This document shows, in pieces, positions 36,357 through 47,867 of a stretch of DNA of 64,000 nt (its first letter is position 1; each line of letters starts with the position of its first letter). The stretch comes from Parascardovia denticolens DSM 10105 = JCM 12538. Its GTDB lineage: Bacteria; Actinomycetota; Actinomycetes; Actinomycetales; Bifidobacteriaceae. The stretch covers positions 806,001 to 870,000 of the forward strand of contig NZ_AP012333.1 in the NCBI RefSeq assembly GCF_001042675.1. Direction: 5' to 3'. Made by a program: the position numbers and the translations under genes. The notes beneath the pieces are model-generated. The model was not told where the DNA came from. It searched no databases and worked only from the letters and a program-made list of their open reading frames with translations.

Positions 36357-36471
36357 GTGCTCCTGAGTGCTTGCAAGTGCGAACACTTTTGGTATTTGTG
36401 TAGCGTCGAACCCTTCTAGGATGGCCGCAACGGCGAAAAGCCGAAGGTCACTGAATAGGAGGGCTTTTATC

Positions 36472-37326
36472 ATGGCAAACATCACAATTCGTGTATTTCA
36501 CGCCGGCGAGGTCTGTGTCGCTCCGGATTTTCCCTTTGGTGGAGAACACAGTAATGCGGTCACGTCATCAGGTATTTTCGAGAACAGATCAAAACGTATG
36601 TGGCTCCCGCTGTCTGCATATCTGATCGAGCATCCGAAGGGGAGATTCCTTGTTGATACCGGCTAGGCGCGTGATATCAGCCCGAACGGTGAGTTCGACA
36701 AGAAAGCGCAGATCAAATCTTTGGGCTCTGTGCTGCTTTATGAAGTGAATCAAGGTCGCATCGGATTGGGGCAGTGCATTGACGAACAGCTTGTAGAAAT
36801 GGGCATCAAAGACTCCGATATTGACGCAGTGCTCATCACTCATCTCGATTGCGATCACGCCAACGGCATGAAACAGGTAAAAGGCGCGAAGAAGTTTTTG
36901 GTCGCAGCGGATGAAATCAAGTTCGCCAACAAGTTCACGCCCGTCAACAAGGTGCGTTACTACAAAGGCTGGTGGGACGGGATCAAACTGACAGGGTTTG
37001 ACTGGAATGATAATCAGGGCCCTGTCGGTAGGTCTTATGACCTTCTTGGGGACGGATCCATTGAAATGATCAACATTCCAGGGCATTCCGATGGACTGTG
37101 TGCGGTCAAGGTCAAGAATGAGGAAGGCAAATTCGTGCTGATGTTCTCCGATGGCGGTTATGCGAGAAAAAGCTGGGAGAAGATGATCACCTCAGGTATT
37201 TATACGGACAAGCAGCTTCAGAAGAAGTCCCTCCAGTGGATCAGGGAACAGAGTCTTGACCCGAATTGTGTCGAGTCAATGGCAAGCCATGACCCGGATG
37301 TTGCTCCGCATGTCATAGAGCTGTGA
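36472..37326 (+). pseudogene. Metallo-beta-lactamase-fold lactonase-like gene with in-frame amber stop
   Basis: Read through one TAG (36664-36666), this frame encodes about 284 residues of the N-acyl-homoserine-lactonase-like MBL family. It includes ANITIRVFHAGEVCVAPDFP, LVDTG, the metal motif THLDCDHANGMKQ and NIPGHSDGLCAV. The residue at the stop is Trp in relatives as I recall them (DTGW..D), so a TGG-to-TAG change explains it. AGGAGG sits before the ATG. The downstream part has no good start of its own. Everything else in the frame is intact, which implies recent inactivation or, less likely, suppression of the stop. Confidence 0.82.
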
Positions 37327-37336
37327 GGTGAGTCCA

Positions 37337-38112
37337 TTGAGACACCATCAGACTGCTCTTATCACAGGAGCCTCCGGAGGACTTGGCTTGGAATTTGCCA
37401 AAATCCTTGCGAAAAAGAAATATGATCTTGTCCTTGTAGCGAGAAACGAGGGGAAAATATATTCTCTCAAAAATGAGCTTGAATCGGAACACGGCATATC
37501 GGTGTATCCATATGCGGCAGACTTGTCGGCTGTGGATGCTGCTTTGAATGTATTCAACTACACGTTGGAGAACGGCATCACAATCGATGTTCTTATTAAC
37601 AACGCCGGTTTTGGTGATTCAGGCAGTTTCGCAGACAGCGACTGGCGAAAACAGTATGAGATGGTGCAGTTGAATGTCGTGGCGATGATGCAACTGACAC
37701 ATTGTTTTCTTAATCCGATGATCGAACAGGGGCATGGGAAGATTCTGAATATATCGTCCGTGGCGGCGTTCAGCGCTGGACCGTATATGAGCATCTACTA
37801 TGCGACCAAGTGTTTCGTCAGAAGCTTTTCCGAAGCAATTGCAGAAGAGGTCAAGGCACGGGAGTCACGGTGACGGCGTTTTGTCCAGGACCTACGGCGA
37901 CTGGGTTTGAGCAGGCGGCGGCAATGGGCAAAGGCTCTGTTATGTTCCGCAAGGCGGCCAAGGCAGGCGATGTTGCAAAGGGTGGCATACGTGCCATGGC
38001 AAGAGGAAAAGTCCTCAGCTACTATGGCAGGTACACGAAGTGCATGAGCTTTCTATGCAGGATTGTTCCAAGATCCGTTGCAAGAAAATATGCCGAAAAA
38101 ATGGATAGATGA
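37337..38112 (+). pseudogene. Short-chain dehydrogenase broken by a frameshift
   Basis: The first part has the SDR cofactor motif TALITGASGGLGLEFAKIL, NNAGFGDSGSF and the catalytic block LNISSVAAFSAGPYMSIYYATK (Ser, Tyr and Lys in order). The frame ends at a TGA (37871-37873). The rest, GTGVTVTAFCPGPTATGF through the C-terminus, continues in another frame. A loss of one G near 37855-37860 explains this. The likely start is TTG 37337 behind GAGGTGA; a GTG lies at 37328. The product would be about 258 residues, normal for the family. It follows the MBL pseudogene by a few bases, as in an operon. Confidence 0.85.
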
Positions 38113-45276: not shown

Positions 45277-45488
45277 CCGCCTCGTCTTCGTCCCAATCGC
45301 AGGAGTTGCAGAGAGAAGTCTTGAGGGGAAGACGTCTATATGCTTTATCGGTTTGAGGATGGATTAGCTTAAGCTCGAAAACTCTGGTGGATATTCCCCT
45401 GACGAGCCTTAAATCGAAGTTTGCTCAATACTTTGTTTTAGAATAGGGATTATCAAAATTTAACAATATATAAAAGGATGGTACGTGG

Positions 45489-47867
45489 ATGGATACGGGT
45501 ATGAGCAAGGAATTGGACGTCAGGCTTGTTCCCGATGAAGATAACAATGCTAGCTATGACATTGAAAAGGCTATTCATGATTTAAATAATCAGATCGATA
45601 ACCAGTCTAGTCAAGCTGACTATATGGATTATTTGGTAGCGATTTCATCAGGGATACTGTGCGGAATGACCGATATCCTTTGGACTGGTGAGTTCGATCT
45701 GACCAGAGGGCGTGATATCGCTGACTCGCAAATTAAGACTTTTGTTAACAAAACAGCGAATATGATGGGCTGCAATAGCGATGATCTAACAAAGTCTGTT
45801 GAATTCCTAGAAAAGAAGTTTCCAATACCAGAGGATGGGAATACACCTGATTTTGGTGGAGGCCTTCAACATCATCTCAGAGACTTTGCGCATCATCCAT
45901 CAATTGTTGGGCTATTGTTTTCGCTCTTAACACAGTTTACTGAGAAATCGTACGGTACAGATACGTTCGGGAATTTTATTATTGTTCCTGTTCCTCCAAG
46001 AAGCCGAACATTCATTGGGGAAAATTCGTTCGATAAAATTTTCCGAGGAACAGTTATCTGGTTTTTCCATCTTGTAAGTGATATGGCTGGATCAAGCAAT
46101 ACTACCGCATTTAGTGGTGGGACTGGCATACCCGGCCCGATATTATCGCTCGCCAAAGAATTATCCTCTCTGCCAATATTTAAAAGCCTCAAGGCTGACG
46201 ATAAGACTTTATCTACCTTCCTTTCAAAAATCTTCAATGGTACGATTTTCGCAAAACGTGATCGAAATGGGAAACTGATAAAAGATTCAGTAATTAGATG
46301 CGATTTAAGAGGTGAATTAGGAGGCGCTCTTGAGCTGGGACGACAAGCACTGCCTGTACTCGCGAATGATTGCCTAGTAAGATGCTTCTACTTTGTCAGA
46401 AGGCTCTTCGAAGAAATTCGGAGGATAAATCCAAAGTCTCTCGATGAAATCAAGGAGCTTGATTGGGATAAAATTAAACCAATTAGTAGTCCTACTCTTA
46501 CAAGGATGTTGACGGTCGCTACAGGAGTATTCACAACGATTGATGTTGCTGATGCGGTTGTTGCAAAGAAATATTGGGTTTCCATCAACTATATTGGCGT
46601 TGGGCGATTTTCTGTCGCTCTCGAACAGGAGATGGTTAATTTTCTTAAGATCAGAGATTTAAAGCGTCTTAGGAAGATGTACGAAATAATAAGTAGGAAT
46701 ACTTTCAAAGAGACAGATAATCGGATTTATGCAAATTTAGGAGATACTTTGGACACTGAAAAATTCGGACTGACAGTAGAGCAAACCGAAATACTCTATA
46801 ACCTGGAACTACTAAAAACCCAGAATGATATCAGCGAGACAAATATGCTGGGAGATAAGGAAAAGATTATTTCTTTGAAGCAGCAGTGGCTTGCTGAATG
46901 GCAGAAATACATGGAAGCCGGCTTTTCAGGGTTTACCGGAGAGAAAGATGCGGTGCTACATTGGTATGATAAGGAAGAGTTGATTTCACGGATTGAACAA
47001 AGCGAACCGTGGAAGACGTGGTTCCGTCTGGTTCTTCTGGAGGCGATGCTGTTTGAGCCATATTATTCCCTTACTATCGAAAAAGACAAAAAAGGGAAGG
47101 CTGTGCCCAGCAAACAGTATAAATTGCAGAATCCGATTTATGGTTACAAATGGCAGAAAGGTGATGAATTCCTAGAGTCGCTATTCCAAGGAGATTATTA
47201 TTCAAAGGGGTATATAAAGCGTTTGAGAAAATGCTATAAAAAGGTAAGAGGCGAGCTGATAGAGCAGCAGAAAAAAGTTGCTGAAGGACTGGCTATTTTT
47301 GCAGCAATAGTAGTAGTAGCTACAGCAACTGCGGGAATGCTTGCTCCAGGCATTGCTGTTGCGCTCGTTGGTACGAATTTTGCTGGTCTTCAAGGAGCTG
47401 CTCTTACGAGTGCATGTCTCGCTTATCTGGGAGGTGGAGCTGTAGCTGTCGGTGGAGCTGGAATGGCTGGAGGCATGATTGCGGTCGTAGGCGGCGGTGC
47501 GGTTCTTGGCGCGGGGGTCGGAGTTTTCGCTGGTGGCGCTACGGCAGCGACGGGTATTATGAGCAAAGAGGAAGTCATACTTCAATCTGCTAAACTATTG
47601 GTTGCGGTCCGGGAAATTTTCCTGAACGATGAACATGACATAGCATATTCAAATAGCGTATATGAGCAATATGTAACGCAGATATCAGAACTTGAAAAGA
47701 GCCTTGTTGATTTGAGATTACAGGCGATGTCGGCATCCAAGGAAGAGAAGGCGGAGCTAGATAAAAAGATCAAAAATCTTAGCGAATCTGTCCATGCAAT
47801 GAAGATTGCAATGAAGAGTATGATGAAATTCAATAGCTCTTTTGAAGCAGGAATGCAGTGTGAGTAA
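45489..47867 (+). CDS. Large AT-rich-encoded membrane-associated protein, function unknown
   Basis: The 792-residue protein has no named family that I can assign. Its N-terminal third is hydrophobic-helical with a His/Asp-rich motif, GGLQHHLRDFAHHP (124-137: H128, H129, D132, H135, H136), and WFFHLVSDMAGSS (H194, D198), suggesting a metal site. The middle (about 330-590) is charged and helical. Residues about 600-690 form a long Gly/Ala/Val-rich hydrophobic region (AIVVVATATAGMLAPGIAVA, then AVAVGGAGMAGGMIAVVGGG), apparently two or three glycine-zipper membrane helices. Residues 720-780 look like a coiled coil. Similar proteins, as I recall, occur in gut Firmicutes. AAAGGATGG precedes the ATG; M5 (45501) is an alternative. 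Its low GC marks it as foreign. Confidence 0.8.
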   Translation: MDTGMSKELDVRLVPDEDNNASYDIEKAIHDLNNQIDNQSSQADYMDYLVAISSGILCGMTDILWTGEFDLTRGRDIADSQIKTFVNKTANMMGCNSDDLTKSVEFLEKKFPIPEDGNTPDFGGGLQHHLRDFAHHPSIVGLLFSLLTQFTEKSYGTDTFGNFIIVPVPPRSRTFIGENSFDKIFRGTVIWFFHLVSDMAGSSNTTAFSGGTGIPGPILSLAKELSSLPIFKSLKADDKTLSTFLSKIFNGTIFAKRDRNGKLIKDSVIRCDLRGELGGALELGRQALPVLANDCLVRCFYFVRRLFEEIRRINPKSLDEIKELDWDKIKPISSPTLTRMLTVATGVFTTIDVADAVVAKKYWVSINYIGVGRFSVALEQEMVNFLKIRDLKRLRKMYEIISRNTFKETDNRIYANLGDTLDTEKFGLTVEQTEILYNLELLKTQNDISETNMLGDKEKIISLKQQWLAEWQKYMEAGFSGFTGEKDAVLHWYDKEELISRIEQSEPWKTWFRLVLLEAMLFEPYYSLTIEKDKKGKAVPSKQYKLQNPIYGYKWQKGDEFLESLFQGDYYSKGYIKRLRKCYKKVRGELIEQQKKVAEGLAIFAAIVVVATATAGMLAPGIAVALVGTNFAGLQGAALTSACLAYLGGGAVAVGGAGMAGGMIAVVGGGAVLGAGVGVFAGGATAATGIMSKEEVILQSAKLLVAVREIFLNDEHDIAYSNSVYEQYVTQISELEKSLVDLRLQAMSASKEEKAELDKKIKNLSESVHAMKIAMKSMMKFNSSFEAGMQCE

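Follow-up and report, generated by a model that had tools for sequence, protein, structure and literature searches.

A probable one-gene, single-chain relative of Bunzi and BnzB + PDC-M09A anti-phage systems in Parascardovia denticolens

A 792-residue gene in a 64,000-nucleotide stretch of the Parascardovia denticolens DSM 10105 genome (hereafter the window) is probably a one-gene system, gained from Clostridia by horizontal transfer, that encodes in a single chain a relative of the anti-phage systems Bunzi and BnzB + PDC-M09A. We give this reading, which is drawn from sequence comparison, a probability of roughly 0.7, a figure that covers the inferred mechanism too. The preliminary description of this DNA had proposed a candidate undescribed effector in which a putative enzyme or sensor is joined to a membrane-active part. 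That architecture is supported, as the two halves match BnzB and the partner found in BnzB operons and the family occurs among defence genes. 'Undescribed' fits only in part, for BnzB is a described defence protein and it is the single-chain form that appears in no library searched. The gene is thus probably a foreign-acquired, one-gene phage-defence system rather than an unclassified toxin.

Bunzi is counted among anti-phage systems in reviews (PMC10952713, PMC12926258), the first of which gives it a TerB domain (PF05099) and the second of which, from 2026, places it with systems of unknown mechanism. The literature we searched, with the original Bunzi paper outside its scope, contains no account of a single-chain Bunzi or of a Bunzi mechanism. 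The window gene is not Bunzi in the strict two-gene sense, because the protein has no PADLOC match to BnzA and Pfam detects no TerB in it or in its middle domain; TerB is nevertheless a weak criterion, as Pfam also misses it in both plasmid BnzAs and reports it above the cut-off in the partner genes of loci L150 and L159. A scan of the host's own genome at E 0.001 gave no BnzA either, where control genomes also gave none. The gene is instead a sister architecture with a clear BnzB family half.

Features of the 792-residue gene, in window coordinates
Feature	Position	Strand	Basis
Complete 792-aa gene: single-chain BnzB + middle domain + glycine zipper + coiled coil	45489..47867	+	ORF, profile and profile-profile evidence
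Candidate ribosome-binding site AAGGA, about 10 nt before ATG	45474..45478	+	read by eye
BnzB-type domain (residues about 25-410) that includes a TM-like helix, residues 45-70	45561..46718	+	PADLOC, hhalign, AlphaFold2
Motif 1, GGGLQHHLRDFAHHP, residues 123-137, H128 and H135 invariant	45855..45899	+	alignments of homologues
Motif 2, WFFHLVSDMAGSS...GTGIPGP, residues 191-217: H194, S197, D198, G213, P215, P217	46059..46139	+	alignments of homologues
Middle domain (residues 424-595): helices for the most part and a short beta hairpin; unmatched in Pfam	46758..47273	+	structure model, hhalign
Glycine-zipper hydrophobic block, residues 596-692	47274..47564	+	composition, PADLOC, hhalign
C-terminal long helices / coiled coil, residues 693-790	47565..47858	+	model, periodicity

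An intact gene with a BnzB-type N-terminal half

The open reading frame begins with ATG, preceded about 10 nt upstream by AAAGGA, and contains no internal stop. Its GC content is 42.3% (GC3 39%), compared with 57% in the window and 57-63% in core neighbours, which puts it with the most AT-rich genes of an AT-rich island that spans 35.8-48 kb of the window. The other island genes encode TetR, MBL-fold, SDR (short-chain dehydrogenase), Rrf2, ADH, glyoxalase, GNAT and ABM proteins, and part of them are broken, including the MBL-fold gene at 36367-37326 and the SDR gene at 37328-38112, which is frameshifted. These observations, together with the nesting of this copy in Clostridia described below, bear out the earlier view of a foreign, AT-rich and intact gene among decaying neighbours. 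The flanking genes were never found together in same-genus genomes, so no empty site could be demonstrated.

In PADLOC profile searches, residues 29-250 matched BnzB of Bunzi (E 1.5e-41), and in a scan of the host's own genome the match runs on to profile position 484, or residue ~391; profile positions 1-143 are absent from the protein. To anchor the name, we used BnzA-BnzB pairs on Lactococcus and Vibrio plasmids, in which both PADLOC models matched full length, and further BnzB + PDC-M09A pairs on Lactiplantibacillus plasmids and in phage NatCom_3357. With hhalign, an alignment of 66 fused N-terminal domains matched five BnzBs, two beside BnzA on plasmids and three more from genomes, at E 1e-31 (probability 99.9), and the BnzBs of PDC-M09A-type operons at E 6e-55. 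On these profile matches, residues ~29-391 are a BnzB homologue. Searches of the window protein against Pfam, NCBIfam and PHROGs gave nothing convincing.

The remote homology search and structure prediction proposed in the preliminary description thus delivered a family and a confident domain model, and no PDB fold match. Folded alone, residues 20-415 gave an AlphaFold2 model with pLDDT 89.7 and pTM 0.78 that is helical almost throughout. Nothing in the PDB matched this domain significantly, whether by Foldseek (best E 0.47), VIA (best Z 6.8 at 9.4 A rmsd) or sequence profile (best E 0.15), although absence from these match lists is not proof of a new fold. The full-length model is less confident (pLDDT 74, falling to about 30 in the glycine zipper), so it offers no pore model, and whole-model searches of PDB and viral libraries returned no significant fold.

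A His/Asp signature marks this domain. All 66 aligned homologues share H128, H129, R131, D132, H135, H136, W191, H194, S197 and D198. Among 31 diverse BnzB-type sequences, the near-invariant signature comprises D116, H128-(H/R)-x5-H135, H194-x2-S197-D198, G213-x-P-x-P217, D272 and R274, with H128 and H135 each present in 30/31 and H194 and D198 in 31/31. Both motif strings picked out earlier are therefore real, the numbering of H128, H135 and D198 was correct and their conservation is not chance; H194 was absent from that list. The likeness then drawn to an HD or zinc-dependent phospholipase-type site is not supported, as no such Pfam family appears at E up to 10 and neither an HD nor a phospholipase C site has Pfam, NCBIfam or PHROG support. 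A split BnzB from a genus related to the host (L014 637-2097, with related L013 and L015) has lost the signature, reading GRSFRAFGRESS and GHQLFGRGDTVDA in L014, and has kept its zipper partner.

A C-terminal half homologous to a BnzB operon partner

The earlier description of a Gly/Ala-rich hydrophobic block followed by a coiled coil was accurate. The 97-residue block holds 23 Gly, 26 Ala and 13 Val, with no charged residue from 601 to 692, and the 100 residues that follow are predicted to form long helices with heptad-like periodicity. PADLOC partly matches residues 585-771 to PDC-M09A (profile 87-272 of 282, E 2.3e-9) and finds no PDC-M09B in the protein. By hhalign, the fused C-terminal half matches PDC-M09A over the zipper at E 3e-15, shares the zipper block with TerB-zipper proteins at E 6e-10 and matches BnzA weakly, over the glycine zipper only (probability 25%).

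In three clostridial loci (L139, L157 and L158), a separate gene of 336-380 aa adjoins a divergent BnzB and aligns end to end with residues 424-792 (hhalign E 3e-63, probability 100), its N-terminal part being a homologue of the middle domain. With its N-terminal half homologous to BnzB and its C-terminal half to a separate gene adjoining BnzB, the window gene is a fusion of two modules that form a two-gene operon elsewhere. No remnant of a BnzB half lies upstream of the partner gene in L139. An adjacent glycine-zipper ORF is also present in 13/18 unfused BnzB loci from the genome searches, as read from locus listings.

The middle domain, of ~170 aa, stands where TerB stands in some relatives, and TerB adjoins several BnzB homologues. 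A degenerate TerB in this position was rejected, as hhalign comparisons with TerB-zipper proteins, the L131 TerB gene and L154 all scored below 1%. BnzA and TerB-zipper proteins, by comparison, match each other across the TerB-like part and zipper (E 3e-10).

Known systems thus each share part of the design. Like Bunzi (BnzA + BnzB; PADLOC PDLC03833, PDLC03834), the window protein has a BnzB homologue with the same H/H/H/D signature and a glycine-zipper part alongside, as in BnzA, but it is one gene rather than two, the module order is reversed with BnzB first, the start of the BnzB profile is lacking and the C-terminal half is not recognisably BnzA beyond the zipper. The BnzB + PDC-M09A operons of Lactiplantibacillus plasmids and phage NatCom_3357 have the same order, BnzB then zipper, and the same zipper signature, but they comprise two genes, and nothing equivalent to the 170-aa middle domain is detectable in the partner. 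The three clostridial operons are homologous over the full C-terminal half (middle domain, zipper and coiled coil), but they consist of two genes, in which the zipper gene precedes a BnzB that is more divergent. Finally, the L150, L159 and L131 loci bring BnzB and a glycine zipper together, but with a TerB domain that is undetectable here.

Other loci show further arrangements. One 645-aa protein (L154 1477-3414), another fusion of these modules, has a Gly/Ala-rich beginning and also contains a BnzB domain and a stretch that resembles TerB (E 0.0016, below the cut-off). Beside a BnzB-like gene at L142 1177-3274, the zipper gene is replaced by a GTPase P-loop gene that by eye resembles dynamin-like proteins (VGTVKAGKSSLINAMIGD). 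The BnzB + PDC-M09A pair of phage NatCom_3357 lies near the end of its record (L115 3294-5847).

Distribution, transfer and neighbourhoods

Fused copies are common in Clostridia and scattered in Actinomycetota. We fetched 77 fused loci (36-62% identity) and aligned 66 near-full-length sequences, mostly from Clostridia and including the window copy. The BnzB family was present in 14/291, 7/396 and 10/398 genomes of three samples, prevalences that are slightly overstated because at least one genome already known to carry it (G154 or G000) was part of each sample. Among relatives the distribution is patchy, with 21/149 showing any match, many to the glycine-zipper part only. The single-chain form is likely to be overlooked by tools that need BnzA beside BnzB, and such systems are therefore probably under-counted in gut Clostridia and their relatives.

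In the tree, a Lachnospiraceae copy is the sister of the window copy, which is placed within Clostridia (local support 0.98-0.987), and most actinobacterial copies fall elsewhere, in a clade that also takes in a few Clostridia and other members. Because the window copy branches inside Clostridia yet sits in an actinobacterial genome, we infer that the gene moved between phyla, by horizontal transfer from Clostridia. Six fused copies (L082, L085, L087, L089, L091 and L103) are interrupted by frameshifts or stops, or by assembly errors, which suggests that the fused gene is often lost.

No neighbouring gene family recurs in more than 6/77 fused loci, and some of the small clusters that do recur are made up of pieces of the fused gene. 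Because no neighbour recurs, the fused gene looks self-sufficient, with no evident obligate partner. The survey of neighbourhoods for defence genes suggested in the preliminary description placed the family as a whole among defence genes. At E 1e-20, the 116 nearest neighbours matched 112 PADLOC models, 116 genes at least 7 positions away matched 128, and 116 control genes, taken from random stretches in 15 genomes that carry the gene, matched 31; these are counts of models rather than genes, several models can match one gene and the counts are not independent. Near neighbourhoods thus carry about four times the models of random same-genome regions, with no gradient between near and far neighbours within 10 kb. 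Because genes at least 7 positions off match as many models as adjacent ones, the data support an enrichment that belongs to a defence-rich mobile region, not to adjacency. The window copy itself lies outside any obvious defence island, among TetR, SDR, ADH, GNAT and lipoprotein genes.

Possible mechanism and alternative explanations

The protein likely works like Bunzi; how it does so cannot be carried over from Bunzi, because that mechanism is itself listed as unknown (PMC12926258). In the mechanism we propose, the BnzB domain would recognise an infection cue or process a small ligand through a putative site of invariant H128, H135, H194 and D198, with D116, D272 and R274. This would free the glycine zipper from restraint by the middle domain, and the zipper could then insert in or perforate the inner membrane. 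The coiled coil would drive oligomerisation, and the infected cell would stop before phage release, an abortive outcome. More tentatively, the BnzB domain may represent a fold not recognised before, helical and associated with the membrane, that acts as a metallo-enzyme or senses a ligand. It would define a superfamily of proteins that sense phage and can exchange their membrane effectors (BnzA, PDC-M09A, TerB-zipper, dynamin-like GTPase or a fused zipper), and the window gene would be its one-polypeptide form. We regard this as possible rather than probable.

A different division of labour, which we consider doubtful, would make the BnzB domain itself the enzyme effector, a membrane-associated metallo-hydrolase with a YdjM-like H/H/H/D site, and leave the zipper only to anchor the protein or sense the membrane. 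The order of His/Asp residues is indeed similar to that of the YdjM family of predicted membrane metal-dependent hydrolases (PF04307), the BnzB pattern H-(R/H)-x5-H ... H-x3-D-x2-(S/T) ... G-x-P paralleling HR-x3-H ... H-x3-D-x2-T-x2-G-x-P. A single hydrophobic helix at 45-70 is kept across BnzB types, and membrane transporters and channels fill many of the top Foldseek rows, none of them significant. However, the best hhalign probability with PF04307 lies below 2%, so YdjM homology was rejected. In addition, the first two histidines are 7 residues apart in BnzB and 5 in YdjM, there is no Pfam match, no PDB fold matches and the motif-less split BnzB of L014 retains its operon.

The membrane-active composition and the lack of a defence gene in the window neighbourhood would also suit a general envelope-stress or cell-surface protein with no defence role, a reading made improbable by the BnzB homology, the patchy distribution, the cross-phylum transfer, the mobile defence-rich neighbourhoods and the relatives on plasmids and phage. 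Another alternative is an antibacterial toxin that is secreted or delivered by contact and whose immunity gene has been lost or lies at a distance. Pore-forming colicin-like proteins contain glycine-rich hydrophobic segments, as this protein does, and pyocin S5 was matched at Z 8.4, but over the C-terminal helices only, and such a match says little where long helices are concerned. The toxin reading is very improbable, given the BnzB-homologous N-terminal half, the lack of any delivery domain found and the lack of a recurrent immunity-like neighbour among the fused loci.

The one-polypeptide form holds its two partners at a 1:1 ratio and lets simple mutants test how sensor and effector are coupled, and the H/H/H/D signature, near-invariant across BnzB types, supplies the first residues to mutate.

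The same genome carries, ~55 kb away and outside the window, a separate PDC-M09A (398 aa, E 1.7e-94) paired with a PDC-M09B (496 aa, E 7e-113) at L002 159-2523 (G000:C1 907046-909410); this pair is a candidate defence system, and its zipper is of the same kind.
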